Shown piece by piece: positions 1 through 5,147 of a DNA stretch of 7,120 nt; position 1 is the stretch's first letter, and each line of letters opens with the position of its first letter. Under the pieces are notes generated by a model. That model made no database searches and was not told the DNA's origin. It worked only from the letters and a program-made list of their open reading frames with translations. Made by a program: the position numbers and the translations under genes. This DNA is from Candidatus Latescibacterota bacterium (GTDB taxonomy: Bacteria; JAAXHH01; JABIQT01): the NCBI GenBank assembly GCA_018667995.1, contig JABIQT010001083.1, forward strand, positions 1 to 7,120, given 5' to 3'.

Positions 1-968
1 AACGTTAACCGTTGTCCGTCCGCGCTGGCTATTCCGGTTATGATATCCCCGTCCACATTACTCGTAAAAGTACCGTCGTCACTAATAGAGTACGTGAATG
101 ACCCGGTGGCGCCCTCCTCCGATTGCGTGGACGCCCCACGAACTTCGAAAGTGCCATTGCCGTTGCCATCGAAGATGATTAAGAGTTTCTCAGAAACATG
201 TGCCTCGTGCGTCTCGTCTCCAATATTGAGCAGCAGAAAATCGAAAGCATACGCCCCAGAGATACTGGCATTGGTGTTACCTGTGGATTTCTTGATCCCA
301 ACGCTGATGGATTGGTGGTCCGGTTGGGTGTTAATCATCGTAAAGCTTCTGCTATCGGGACTGACAATTCCGATTCCTGTGTTTCCGCTGTCAACGGTAA
401 AGGTTCCGTCATCCGCAACAGCGTAGGTAAATGCACCAATCTCCCCTATATCAGACGGAATCGAACTTGAGAGTATCTCGACCGTACCGTTTCCATTCCC
501 GTCTACAACAATTTTGGTCACGCTGACATGGGCATCTATACCGTCCGCGAGAATGGGATTCTCATGGTCCACGATCCCCAGGTAATTGGTGTAAATAAAC
601 TCGCCAACCAGATCGGCGTTTGTGTTTCCAGTAGACTCTCTTATACCAAAAATGAGTGACCTGAAGTTATCATCAAGGCTAACCCCTGAAAAAGTCTGCC
701 CGTCCGGGCTGATGGCCGAGAGGAATGCCGTGTTCTGGTTGTCATCAGTCGGAAAAACCACTGTGAAATTCCCGTTGCTGTCGGCGAAATAGGTAAAAGG
801 TCCTGCATCCCCGACAGTCGTGGGATCCGATGAGGCAAGAATCTGAAAGGTTCCGCCGCCAATTCCATCAAACGTCGTGGCAAGTTGCAGCGTTAATACC
901 TCATCAGAATCAGGCTCGTCAGCATTCCTGGTTTGTGCGTATACGTTGACGACGAAGTCGCCGGTTAT
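1..968 (-). repeat. Protein-level tandem repeats of ~117 residues (two full units and a partial third)
   Basis: Unit A covers residues 33-150 (bases 615-968), unit B 151-266 (267-614) and unit C 267-354 (1-266, cut by the edge). Each begins with a short strand (ITGDF, LVGEF, ISGAY). A G-rich turn follows: GIGGGTF in A, DGNGNGT in B and C. Next come FTY plus a D/N-G turn (SNGNFTV, DDGTFTV, DDGTFTS) and an SPDG-like or SADG turn. Units A and B both end in STGNTNA. The units are clearly related in protein but diverged in DNA, so the duplication looks old. Confidence 0.8.
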
Positions 969-1064
969 GCGGGCTTCTGGCACCTGGGCGAAGGCAACAG
1001 TGGATAGGGTTGTGAGGATCACCGTGGAAAACAGGAGTACCTTGATATAGATTTGAGAAAACAC
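1..1064 (-). CDS. Secreted protein with tandem ~117-residue repeats, N-terminal part (partial)
   Basis: The frame is open from a GTG codon at 1064-1062 to the window edge: 354 codons, with the C-terminus missing. The GTG follows an AAGGAG ribosome binding site (1072-1077) by 7 bases. An in-frame TAG lies about 30 bases upstream with no ATG in between, which fixes the start. Residues 1-26 form a signal peptide: Lys8, a hydrophobic core at about 9-23, and an AFA cleavage site before Gln27. The product is therefore exported. From residue about 33 the protein consists of repeats rich in Gly, Asp, Asn, Thr and Ser, with alternating hydrophobic residues as in beta strands. Recurring motifs are GNGNGT, FTY, DDGTFT and STGNTNA. 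I see no catalytic motif or membrane anchor in the visible part. I do not recognise the family. A surface or extracellular beta-structured protein is an inference. Confidence is high that this is a gene and low for any function. Confidence 0.88.
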   Translation of the reverse strand, partial: MFSQIYIKVLLFSTVILTTLSTVAFAQVPEARITGDFVVNVYAQTRNADEPDSDEVLTLQLATTFDGIGGGTFQILASSDPTTVGDAGPFTYFADSNGNFTVVFPTDDNQNTAFLSAISPDGQTFSGVSLDDNFRSLIFGIRESTGNTNADLVGEFIYTNYLGIVDHENPILADGIDAHVSVTKIVVDGNGNGTVEILSSSIPSDIGEIGAFTYAVADDGTFTVDSGNTGIGIVSPDSRSFTMINTQPDHQSISVGIKKSTGNTNASISGAYAFDFLLLNIGDETHEAHVSEKLLIIFDGNGNGTFEVRGASTQSEEGATGSFTYSISDDGTFTSNVDGDIITGIASADGQRLT

Positions 1065-1157: not shown

Positions 1158-1494
1158 ATATCCTGCAGATGTCATGTAACCTTAAGCCCGTTCTGTTGCA
1201 GGTCAACCAAATACTGAAATGGGCGATCTTCAATTGTGGACCACGCATGCAATACCTATATGCGGTGTGCCTGGTTGTGGTAATTGTTCTCCATTGGTTG
1301 TAGCTCGACTGAGCATGCTCTGATGTGTCAGCTTAGGATTATGATATTGAGAATTTGATGGAATAAAAGACAGGATTGTCTGAAATTAGATTTGTACCGA
1401 CACCTGTCAATGATTTTCAACGGAATGCGAAGGATTGTCCTTGGCACAACCATGACATCCCTATACACCGCGCTCACGTGGCGAATCTTTACGT

Positions 1495-1518
1495 CCCGCT
1501 CGTGTGGTTTCGAGCGGG
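1495..1518. other. GC-rich perfect hairpin in the intergenic region
   Basis: CCCGCTCG (1495-1502) and CGAGCGGG (1511-1518) are perfect inverted repeats with an 8-base loop, TGTGGTTT on the plus strand. No T-run follows on either strand, so it is not a standard intrinsic terminator. It could be a structured RNA element or a protein-binding palindrome. Confidence 0.5.
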
Positions 1519-1808
1519 GCAACCATCCTAGGGCCTCTTGATGAACACAGACTATCTGTTCTTAATCTCAGGGCATCTGTGATGATGCGCGATAGTGGAA
1601 CGGTCAGAATTGGGAAGCAGGTGGTGTCCTCGCGCAACCGACTCTGATGTGGACAAGGACAAGCAGTTGTGGGATAGTAAATGTGGCAGAACTGGAAGAA
1701 CGTATCTATTGACTGTATAGGTATTCAGAGCGAATCGCGGCAAGCCCTAGCATCGGACCTGCACGTTTCTATTATGTGCGATAGAAGAGCATTCCGAGTC
1801 CAAAAGCA

Positions 1809-1843
1809 GAAAGCCCTTAACTTGTTGAAAGTTAAGGGCTTTC
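1809..1843 (-). terminator. Terminator-like hairpin downstream of tRNA-fMet
   Basis: GAAAGCCCTTAACTT (minus strand) pairs perfectly with AAGTTAAGGGCTTTC: a 15-base-pair stem with a 5-base loop (1824-1828). It begins 5 bases after the tRNA 3' end. On the minus strand it is followed by TGCTTTTG, a short, imperfect T-tract. Position and stem length fit an intrinsic terminator or 3' processing structure for the tRNA transcript. The stem is symmetrical, but no gene approaches it from the plus side. Confidence 0.8.
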
Positions 1844-1848
1844 GTGTA

Positions 1849-1922
<74 letters not shown>

Positions 1923-1936
1923 CCGATTAGGTTCCT

Positions 1937-1965
1937 AAAATAGGAAGTGCTCCCTCGATTGTCAA
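1937..1965 (-). promoter_or_regulatory. Sigma70-type promoter of tRNA-fMet
   Basis: On the minus strand a perfect -35 box TTGACA (1960-1965) is separated by exactly 17 bases from TATTTT (1937-1942), which matches 4 of 6 bases of the -10 consensus. Initiation about 7 bases later would give a short 5' leader, removed by RNase P before the mature end at 1922. Confidence 0.85.
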
Positions 1966-2011
1966 GCGGTATTTACACCAATGCCCGTTGGCTGGTCCTG
2001 CGGGCTGCGGG

Positions 2012-3052
2012 TCACACGCTCCGGATCTGGGGTTTGCTGCCATCCGGCTTCAGGGCGCGACCATCAGGAATCCCACAGCCGTGGAACAGTACACGCTGTA
2101 CCGCCAGATCGTGGGCCGCCGAATAGTCGGGTTCCTTATCCCCACGGATGCAAGCCGCCAGTTCCCGTAGAAGAGTGGGGAAGTCGTCTGGCGTTTCTAT
2201 GGTGAGATCCTGCCAGCCGGTCTGGTATCCTTCGCGGCCTGTTTCCAGACAGAGACTCAGGTTGTTCGAGCCAATCTGATTATGAATGGCTGTGCCCTCG
2301 GTTCCATACAACTCTATCCTGCGCGTTCGATCGGTACCCACATGCATGGCTGCCGTTTCAACAATGGCGGTACAATCGGATCGGAATTCATACAGCACGA
2401 CAGCATTGTCAACTTGGGACTTATTCCCGAAATGCTTACCAAGTACTGATTGTGCCCTCACAGGCTCTCCCAAAAGAGCGACCATGAGATCCACCAGATG
2501 GCCAGCCATTTCGAAGTAGACACCAGCCTGGTACTTACCCAGGGTGGATTCGATTTGGGGATGCCAGGATTTGGGCTTTGGAATATGTCCCCGGTAGTAA
2601 AATAAATCCCCCAGGGCGCCGGATTTCGCCATTCTCAACATCTCATGGATGGCTGCATTGTAGCGCCACATGTAGGCCACCTGAAGTTGTAGCCCGCGCT
2701 CTTGTGCAAGATTCTGGAGTTCTTCGAGTCGCGCCAGGTCGATTCCTGCGGGCTTCTCCAAGAGCACATGCTTTCCTGCTTTCAGTGCTTTTTCAACATA
2801 GTCCAGATTCTGATGGATTCTGCCTTCTACAATGACGGCCTCGGCCTCGCTGAACAGTACTTCTTCGACATTAGCATATACCTGAATGTCCGGCACGAAT
2901 TTCGTCCACTGCAGCCACTTCTGCTGGCGCACGGCCTCTTCCGGTTCGTACATGCCCACAATCTGGAACTCGTCGGGCCTCAGAGCGGCCTCGCGCACAT
3001 GCAGCACGGCGTGACTGTGCCAGACACCCAAATAGGCTAATTTCAATGGCAT
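2012..3052 (-). CDS. Gfo/Idh/MocA-family NAD(P)-dependent oxidoreductase
   Basis: The product has 346 residues, a normal length for the family. These enzymes oxidise or reduce sugars, inositols and related polyols using NAD(P) in the cytoplasm. The N-terminal Rossmann half opens with LKLAYLGVWHSHA (residues 3-15), where the usual GxGxxG loop is replaced by GVWHSHA. The EKP motif, whose lysine is a family catalytic/cofactor residue, is at 99-101 after KAGKHVLL. The C-terminal half carries EMAGHLVDLMVALLGEP (181-197), the GHxxD element that supplies active-site residues. The frame is open upstream to an ATG at 3157, but I start at 3052. A ribosome binding site AAGGGA lies 8 bases before that ATG, homology begins there, and a promoter sits inside the upstream extension. 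It is divergent from the heparinase-like gene. No clear terminator separates it from the tRNA downstream. The substrate cannot be told from sequence. Confidence 0.92.
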   Translation of the reverse strand: MPLKLAYLGVWHSHAVLHVREAALRPDEFQIVGMYEPEEAVRQQKWLQWTKFVPDIQVYANVEEVLFSEAEAVIVEGRIHQNLDYVEKALKAGKHVLLEKPAGIDLARLEELQNLAQERGLQLQVAYMWRYNAAIHEMLRMAKSGALGDLFYYRGHIPKPKSWHPQIESTLGKYQAGVYFEMAGHLVDLMVALLGEPVRAQSVLGKHFGNKSQVDNAVVLYEFRSDCTAIVETAAMHVGTDRTRRIELYGTEGTAIHNQIGSNNLSLCLETGREGYQTGWQDLTIETPDDFPTLLRELAACIRGDKEPDYSAAHDLAVQRVLFHGCGIPDGRALKPDGSKPQIRSV

Positions 3053-3060
3053 TGATGGAA

Positions 3061-3066
3061 TCCCTT
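3061..3066 (-). promoter_or_regulatory. Ribosome binding site of the oxidoreductase
   Basis: AAGGGA on the minus strand, 8 bases before the ATG at 3052. It supports the shorter 346-residue protein over the 381-residue frame starting at 3157. Confidence 0.65.
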
Positions 3067-3072
3067 CGGAGT

Positions 3073-3096
3073 GTTGTCCGCTCCCCAGCGGCCAAC
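3073..3096. promoter_or_regulatory. Imperfect palindrome in the oxidoreductase leader
   Basis: On the plus strand GTTG-T-CCGCT (3073-3082) mirrors AGCGG-C-CAAC (3087-3096) around CCCC: 9 of 10 positions pair. It lies in the inferred 5' leader of the oxidoreductase, between promoter and ribosome binding site. It could be a repressor operator or a leader hairpin. Confidence 0.4.
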
Positions 3097-3119
3097 GTGG
3101 TAATGCTTGTTTCGAGTCT

Positions 3120-3150
3120 ATTATATGCGTCATTACCAAGAAATTGTCAA
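3120..3150 (-). promoter_or_regulatory. Promoter of the oxidoreductase gene
   Basis: On the minus strand both boxes are perfect: TTGACA (3145-3150) and TATAAT (3120-3125). The 19-base spacer is 2 longer than optimal, which may weaken the promoter or make it dependent on an activator. Transcription would start near 3112 and give a leader of about 60 bases before the ATG at 3052. Confidence 0.7.
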
Positions 3151-3178
3151 GTATCACAATGGGAGAAATACGTTGACA
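3145..3178. promoter_or_regulatory. Candidate operator: interrupted inverted repeat between the divergent genes
   Basis: TGTCAAGTAT (3145-3154) is mirrored by ATAC-G-TTGACA (3168-3178) with a single inserted G, around a 13-base centre. The left arm is the -35 box of the oxidoreductase promoter. The right arm is a perfect TTGACA facing the heparinase-like gene. A dimeric regulator binding both arms could control both genes, but paired -35 boxes alone would give part of the same symmetry. Confidence 0.35.
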
Positions 3179-3209
3179 GTAGTCCCGAAATCAAAGAGAC
3201 TGGCCGACC

Positions 3210-5147
3210 ATGGGACCACATCTCTTACTGACCGAACAATCTCGGAATGGACTGCGCTCCTTAGCTGATGTCAAGCGGTCCGTTATGTCCGGGCATGGTC
3301 AGAAACTCTGGACATCGTTAAAACTCCGAGCAGACAGGAGCGCCAGTGGTGCCCCGCTGGTGCCCACGGATATGATACCTGGCCGCGATCCTCTAATGGC
3401 CAAACACGGGAACGCCGATTACGTGATCGTGCAGGCGGCAGCTGATCGCATCATGGATGCGGCACTGGTCGCCCTCATCACGGACGACCTCAGCTATAAA
3501 GACGCAGCGCTCGTACAGATAGAAGCGCTCTATGATGCTTCTCATTGGCCGGAGTGGAGGGATCTTGCGCACCACTTTGTAGCGGCGGATCTGCGAACAG
3601 GGCAGCTCTGTCAGGCGGTTGGATTCGCCTTCGACTGGTTATATCCCATGCTATCAGAGCATGAACGAGAGTGGATCGTCGATGGCATTGACCGTTGTGG
3701 AATTCGGCCTTATATGCAGGCTTACGATGAGAATGCATCGTATTTCGCCCGGCAGAATAACTGGCAGACTTGCGTAGTGGGCGGCCTGGGTATTGCAGGG
3801 ATGGCTCTTGAACACCACCACCCGGATGCACAACAGCTCATGGATATGGCCCACAAGCGCATGCTGGCCTATCGGTCCGTCTATGGCCCCGCGGGGGAGT
3901 TCAACGAAAATCCGGGATACGCTGGTGCGACGCGCCTTCCAGTAATCTATTTTTCGGCCCACCGATATCATACGGGTGGTGGCGAGAACCTGCTCGCCGA
4001 AGCTCCATTCCCGGAAACATGCAAATGGTACATGTACTTCACCGCTCCGCCCGACCGCGTGGTCGATTTCGGAGATACCCATGCGAATGCCCCGCCTGGC
4101 AGTAGCCACTATGCGGCTGTAGCAGCGGCAACGGGAAGTAGCATGTTGCAGTGGTACTATCTGAACTACCAGAATCGAGAGGACTCATCGCTCCTACCGC
4201 TCGAGCTGCTCTGGTATGACGACACCATTAAACCTGAATCGCCCGACGGCAGTCTTCCACTCGGGGACGCCTTCCCCGCCCACGGCGGATGTATCAGCAG
4301 TCGGTCCGACTGGCACGAGCGTCGTCCGCATACGGTCGTGTTCAGCAAGGCGGGCCACGGGTCTGAGGCGCACGGCCACCACGATGCCGGGCAGGTGTGT
4401 GTGGATGCGCACGGAGAACGAATGATCGTTGATCTTTGTTCACCGCCTATGTATCCCGAGGATTTCTTCGAAGAAAATCGGTACCGCTACTACAATGCCG
4501 GTGTTCTTGGCCACAATGTGCTGATGTTTGATGGGCAGGAGACGTTCGCTGGCGAAATGCACAGAGCCGAGATCGAACATGCTCAGTTCGACGAGCATGT
4601 AGGTGGGGGGTGGCGTCTCGACCTATCCGGATGCTACGAGGGCTTAGTGCGGTATAAACGAGCGGTGGCCCACCTGCTACCCGGCATAGTTGCTGTGCTC
4701 GACGAAGCAGAACTAACTGGGTCCCGGGACATCTCATTGCGGTGGCACACGGTCGATCAATCGGAGCCCGATAGGGAAGGTCGTTTTGTAGTCCGGTCGG
4801 GTACGACGGCGCTGTCCGCCAGGATTGTCGGACTCGACGGTATCGGGTTGACCTATCAGCGCCGCCGACATGCCTACCACGAGCCCTATAACAAAGGTCG
4901 TCTTGGAGATATATTCGAGGATAGGCATGAAAGCTACGTGGAGGCGCAATGCCAATCGGATCGATGCCGTTTGCTTACCTTATTCTATGTCCCGGCTGCT
5001 GGCGATCCTCCTTGTGACTGGGAGGCGCTCGAGGACGGTTGGAGCCCGGTTGGCGAAACGTCACAAGGCATTGTCAAGGTAGGTGCACAGTCTCTTTCCG
5101 TGTGGGCGGCTACGCCGGGGCGCAGCGTGCGTGTCGGACTCGACTAA
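3210..5147 (+). CDS. Heparinase II/III-family protein (putative polysaccharide or oligosaccharide lyase)
   Basis: The product has 645 residues and the two-part plan of heparinase II/III and related alginate lyases. These cleave uronic-acid-containing glycans by beta-elimination. Residues about 1-330 look like the helical toroid, with NNW (183-185) and NENPGY (232-237) in expected active-site regions. Residues about 355-645 look like the beta-sandwich. Its entry motif HGHHD (388-392), followed by GERMIVDL, matches the His/Asp element of the heparinase II/III C-terminal domain. LGHNVLMFDGQE (433-444) is the usual H-N motif. There is no signal peptide or membrane segment, so it should work in the cytoplasm, probably on imported oligosaccharides. 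ATG 3210 is the only ATG, GTG or TTG start after an in-frame TAG at 3180. The Shine-Dalgarno sequence is poor (AGAG, about 11 bases away). It is first in a plus-strand cluster with trmH (38 bases downstream) and an EamA gene. The exact substrate is unknown. Confidence 0.88.
   Translation: MGPHLLLTEQSRNGLRSLADVKRSVMSGHGQKLWTSLKLRADRSASGAPLVPTDMIPGRDPLMAKHGNADYVIVQAAADRIMDAALVALITDDLSYKDAALVQIEALYDASHWPEWRDLAHHFVAADLRTGQLCQAVGFAFDWLYPMLSEHEREWIVDGIDRCGIRPYMQAYDENASYFARQNNWQTCVVGGLGIAGMALEHHHPDAQQLMDMAHKRMLAYRSVYGPAGEFNENPGYAGATRLPVIYFSAHRYHTGGGENLLAEAPFPETCKWYMYFTAPPDRVVDFGDTHANAPPGSSHYAAVAAATGSSMLQWYYLNYQNREDSSLLPLELLWYDDTIKPESPDGSLPLGDAFPAHGGCISSRSDWHERRPHTVVFSKAGHGSEAHGHHDAGQVCVDAHGERMIVDLCSPPMYPEDFFEENRYRYYNAGVLGHNVLMFDGQETFAGEMHRAEIEHAQFDEHVGGGWRLDLSGCYEGLVRYKRAVAHLLPGIVAVLDEAELTGSRDISLRWHTVDQSEPDREGRFVVRSGTTALSARIVGLDGIGLTYQRRRHAYHEPYNKGRLGDIFEDRHESYVEAQCQSDRCRLLTLFYVPAAGDPPCDWEALEDGWSPVGETSQGIVKVGAQSLSVWAATPGRSVRVGLD

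Follow-up and report, generated by a model that had tools for sequence, protein, structure and literature searches.

A GTG-started gene at one end of the window encodes what appears to be a Sec-exported chain of three or more small calycin-like barrels, which we regard as most likely an extracellular or cell-surface binding or adhesion module. The window, meaning the whole stretch of DNA analyzed here, is one whole contig (C407; 7120 bases) from a draft genome of 6.06 Mb that is 85% complete and broken into 1165 contigs. The repeats, the occurrence of the family across genomes, the strand signature and the pattern of turns and loops were computed, the export signal was read from the sequence, and the fold is predicted; surface exposure in this organism and binding are what we infer. 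The features referred to in the text are as follows.

3..1064, minus strand: GTG-started gene for the putatively exported tandem-barrel protein (open reading frame of 354 codons; 3′ end missing at the contig edge)
1072..1077, minus strand: Shine-Dalgarno sequence AAGGAG (sequence read; 7 nt spacing to the GTG)
987..1064, minus strand: putative signal peptide, residues 1-26 (MFSQIYIKVLLFSTVILTTLSTVAFA), with an AxA site and without a lipobox (sequence read)
618..974, minus strand: predicted barrel repeat R1, 119 aa (self-alignment and repeat profile)
270..617, minus strand: repeat R2, 116 aa, predicted to fold as an eight-stranded barrel (self-alignment, repeat profile and structure prediction)
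3..269, minus strand: predicted barrel repeat R3, truncated past the would-be strand F where the contig ends, 89 aa from its start (self-alignment and repeat profile)
483..503, minus strand: predicted B-C hairpin turn DGNGNGT of R2 (structure prediction and repeat alignment)
954..962, minus strand: strand A signature G-D-F of R1 (repeat alignment)
597..605, minus strand: strand A signature G-E-F of R2 (repeat alignment)
249..257, minus strand: strand A signature G-A-Y of R3 (repeat alignment)
639..641, minus strand: Arg as the basic residue at the end of R1 strand H (repeat alignment)
291..293, minus strand: Lys as the basic residue at the end of R2 strand H (repeat alignment)

The GTG codon lies at 1064-1062 on the minus strand, and this start is well supported since AAGGAG precedes it at a spacing of 7 nt. 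The hydrophobic signal sequence ends in STVAFA, followed by Q as the first residue after the cleavage site, and contains no lipobox cysteine, so export of the protein and its release by signal peptidase I are to be expected. The mature part (328 residues) lacks both Cys and Trp and is acidic (46 D/E versus 11 K/R). A preliminary description of this DNA had proposed the GTG-started frame, the signal peptide with its AFA cleavage site and the loss of the gene's end at the edge, and all three were recovered here, the frame by its Shine-Dalgarno sequence, the signal by direct reading and the truncation by an open reading frame that is still open at the contig end (base 3). When the rest of the gene was sought, the 22 bases at the contig end matched nowhere else in the assembly.

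The protein had also been described as a series of ~117-residue tandem repeats, and this was confirmed. A repeat profile delineated three abutting copies (119, 116 and at least 89 aa), and gapped self-alignments of R1/R2, R1/R3 and R2/R3 scored 25, 9 and 19 standard deviations, respectively, above 500 shuffles each. An ungapped offset scan of the same protein gave no single strong period because the copies differ by insertions and deletions. The motifs said to be shared were found only in part as described: FTY is present in R1, R2 and R3 and STGNTNA at both repeat junctions, but GNGNGT and DDGTFT are exact only in R2 and R3 and are degenerate in R1 (GIGGGT and SNGNFT). A profile search of the window's genome found no further copies. 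The protein itself could hold more than three, because its end is missing.

No family in Pfam, NCBIfam, PHROGs or the PDB sequences claims the repeat; a profile search, as the preliminary description had called for, returned no convincing match in these four libraries. Judged by its sequence, the repeat is a family new to the libraries searched; "unrecognised", as it had been called, therefore stands for the sequence but not for the fold, which is predicted to be a familiar calycin-type barrel. DUF5640 (PF18692) produced a weak local match to R3 (11.8 bits, E 0.23, 25 profile positions only), and membership was rejected at a score far under the curated gathering cut-off of 28.5 bits. A cadherin repeat (PDB 5uz8), with a best single-domain i-Evalue of 0.55, was likewise set aside, the predicted fold being an eight-stranded meander barrel instead, and the cadherin, xylanase-module, virginiamycin B lyase and VH matches among PDB sequences were marginal or short. 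No known calycin family in Pfam, NCBIfam or PDB matched by sequence, and lipocalins were reached by Foldseek only at E ~1e-3. The repeat family did not come up in literature searches for bacterial proteins with lipocalin-like domains in tandem.

Relatives bearing three copies each were found in five further lineages belonging to distinct groups (L006, G143, G142, G341 and G279). A profile of the three window repeats led to L006 (a contig of MAG Zod_Metabat.896; 35% identity, E 4e-11, three copies), a six-repeat profile of the window and L006 led to the G143 lineage (three copies; present in 5 of the 7 genomes of G143's phylum), and a wider profile led to G142, G341 and G279 (three copies each), some of whose copies were recognized only by inspection and alignment. 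With the window-only profile, L006 and G143-type repeats scored 11-46 bits, except for one L006 copy at 1.3, against 9.3 for the best shuffled domain; with the next profile, the whole repeat regions of G142, G341 and G279 scored 26-69 bits versus 13.7 for shuffled sequence. These scores above shuffled controls support the steps of homology, with G279 appearing as the weakest of the relatives. The repeat was found in none of 15 other genomes of the window's phylum, indicating that the gene is sporadic, and searches of viral, phage and plasmid collections found no relative. Two other candidates were dropped: L002, the first relative to be returned (E 0.003), is a pilin-like protein, and a G376 match (E 0.006) is a short fragment.

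AlphaFold2, run on R2 with five other repeats, predicted eight strands in up-and-down (meander) order (pLDDT 85.9, pTM 0.77). Each repeat is predicted to form an eight-stranded up-and-down calycin-like β-barrel, and the calycin arrangement, a closed eight-stranded +1 antiparallel barrel, is present by prediction only. Together with the export signal as read, this predicted barrel agrees with the β-rich extracellular module suggested earlier. A full-length model from a two-row alignment was poor (pLDDT 60); a similar strand pattern recurs in it three times, and its quality does not allow the packing of the barrels to be read. A Foldseek search with the R2 model gave lipocalins as the top rows, at weak E-values (1e-3 to 1e-2) and TM-scores of 0.4-0.58, and against viral models it gave weak lipocalin-like and unrelated rows only. 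By VIA-align, the R2 model matched eight-stranded barrels along most of its length, among them the de novo barrel 8ah9 (Z 12.1, 1.8 Å, 94 residues) and quinohemoprotein amine dehydrogenase 1jmx (Z 11.8, 2.3 Å, 95 residues). Since OmpA and designed barrels also reach Z 8-12, such a match shows shape and not lipocalin descent.

The OmpA rows themselves (Z 9-11, up to 11.0) and a topology of short turns and long loops in common could suggest that the repeats are tandem transmembrane eight-stranded OmpA-type barrels in the outer membrane. We consider this highly improbable, as the strands predicted for R2 are short, at 5-11 residues, the final one closes with K or R (I/V-K/R) and lacks a terminal aromatic β-signal, and the relatives bear lipoboxes or fuse their barrels to soluble RCC1, FN3 or FGE-sulfatase domains. 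Strand length also bears on another reading, in which the barrels, like true lipocalins and fatty-acid-binding proteins, would each hold a small hydrophobic ligand in a cup. Such a cup would suit the calycin-like predicted fold and its signature, and a barrel of similar size, that of Cap15, has a PDB title naming it a cyclic dinucleotide receptor; yet short strands in repeats of ~115 aa, compared with ~150-170 for most matched lipocalin chains, mean that the interior may be filled, and a ligand cup seems to us decidedly unlikely.

A binding or adhesion module, the reading that we favor, draws on what is constant and what varies among the aligned repeats. Strand A carries a Gly in 23 of 24 non-redundant repeats and an aromatic residue at +2 in all 24 (9 W, 11 Y, 4 F; background 10%), and strand H ends in a basic residue in 21 of 23 (background 4.6%). 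Trp, which gives the literal GxW, is confined to the G341 and G279 lineages; the window repeats have F, F and Y. In outlier bacterial lipocalins, what persists of the family signature is GxW on strand A together with a basic strand H residue that stacks on it (PMC5040251). Contact between the aromatic and the basic residue is expected because strands A and H are neighbors in a closed barrel, and the former would then pack on the latter.

Turn lengths are fixed across the family, with 6-7 residues in the D-E turn and 5 in the F-G turn (27 of 27 repeats). Over the same 27 repeats, the segment holding the A-B loop spans anything between 18 and 73 residues, and the C-D, E-F and G-H loop segments vary by 7-8; given the up-and-down order, these variable loops would all lie at one end of the barrel. 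The Gly/Asn/Asp turns correspond to the β-hairpin turns B-C, D-E and F-G in the predicted structure and the alignment. They had been suggested to bind metal, which did not hold up: they are hairpin turns, and the acidic position of B-C is not conserved in the relatives. No catalytic or metal residues are conserved across the repeat alignment. In the G143 phylum (L014, L029, L030, L031 and L032), the A-B loop of repeat 2 contains a Cys-rich insert, for example CSSYTDQTNCEEASGCYWDGYFC, which resembles a short PSI-type motif and is absent from the window protein.

By analogy with lipocalins, the G-x-aromatic of strand A and the basic residue of strand H probably hold the barrel closed. The fixed-length hairpin turns B-C, D-E and F-G would close one barrel end, and the barrels would serve as scaffolds whose variable end contacts a ligand, a polymer or a partner protein. 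Fixed turns combined with variable loops at one end have the look of a scaffold with a recognition face, and thereby suggest a binding role. Alternatively, the barrels could serve only as structural spacers, binding nothing, within a surface layer or a stalk: the conserved residues all look structural (turn glycines and the strand-end signature), with no catalytic or metal residue among them, and the repeats diverge freely (22-42% identity to R2). However, a plain spacer would have no need of loop variation concentrated at one barrel end, including a Cys-rich A-B insertion in one lineage, and we think spacers unlikely.

The relatives are lipoproteins or multidomain exported proteins, which we count in favor of placing the binding module at the surface or outside the cell. 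Carriers from G395, G394 and G142 have a lipobox followed by GGGG (CGGGG lipobox proteins). At L050 (G341), two adjacent genes (1-1137 and 1232-3439) each end in three barrels; the complete gene encodes a lipoprotein with an RCC1 propeller before its three barrels, and the first, truncated where the contig begins, still shows the closing part of the same RCC1 propeller. The G279 carrier has a signal sequence, an FN3 domain before the barrels and an FGE-sulfatase domain after them. Eight related open reading frames (G143, G394, G395, G396, G397, G142 and both from G341) stop at most a few residues past repeat 3, where neither a sorting nor an anchor domain follows, and two others continue into further domains. 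Separately, L006 (2-3355) and L051 (2467-5655), from two different genomes, combine their barrels with a common unmodelled N-terminal repeat containing GYWIKM / GYWVYM motifs.

The gene neighborhood, consisting of a tRNA-Met, a Gfo/Idh oxidoreductase and a heparinase-like gene, with ~780 bp of non-coding DNA adjoining the barrel gene, is uninformative on the role of the barrel protein, and we count this against the binding reading. As to these neighbors, the tRNA-Met (1849-1922, minus strand) has an inverted repeat, AAAGCCCTTAAC...GTTAAGGGCTTT, directly downstream (1812-1848), which is likely an intrinsic terminator. The gene at 3210-5147 encodes a heparinase II/III-like protein with a DUF4962 match and adjoins the Gfo/Idh oxidoreductase on the other strand; the two are possible polysaccharide degradation genes.

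In a tree of 27 repeats, the three from the window group together (support 0.94), as do the three from L006 (0.87), and the repeats of the G143 and G397 genomes group by position with their counterparts. Because some repeats group per protein and others by position, triplication seems to have occurred more than once, on a tree whose branches are long and whose support is moderate. We raise tentatively, as a doubtful broader proposal, that these are uncatalogued natural arrays of three calycin-like barrels, triplicated apparently repeatedly and independently and displayed on exported proteins of several uncultured lineages, in which the variable loops at one end would give each barrel its own specificity.

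With this analysis, a repeat missed by the libraries searched and present in several poorly known lineages acquires a domain identity, boundaries and a profile that can be used. What would be annotated as a "hypothetical secreted protein" becomes a barrel module that can be tested and whose variable face is defined, and provides a case of a predicted calycin-like domain occurring as a tandem array and not as a single domain.

Among known systems, the Cap15 barrel (PDB 7n34) is similar in size (~108 aa) and shape (Z 11.7, 1.9 Å over 91 residues), but it is only 6% identical and is titled a cyclic dinucleotide receptor, a role that nothing in the context of the window gene suggests. The TbpB C-lobe and NHBA are likewise eight-stranded barrels on exported surface lipoproteins (Z 8-9), although no sequence similarity to them was found and they differ in taxa and domain context. 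Compared with lipocalins, the repeats have no sequence match, carry Phe or Tyr in the window and Trp in two relative lineages only, are shorter and stand in tandem, three per protein, with a presumed aromatic/basic contact. What they have in common with lipocalins and the calycin superfamily, including the outlier Tp0751 (PMC5040251), is a predicted eight-stranded +1 barrel, a G-x-aromatic strand A and a basic strand H.
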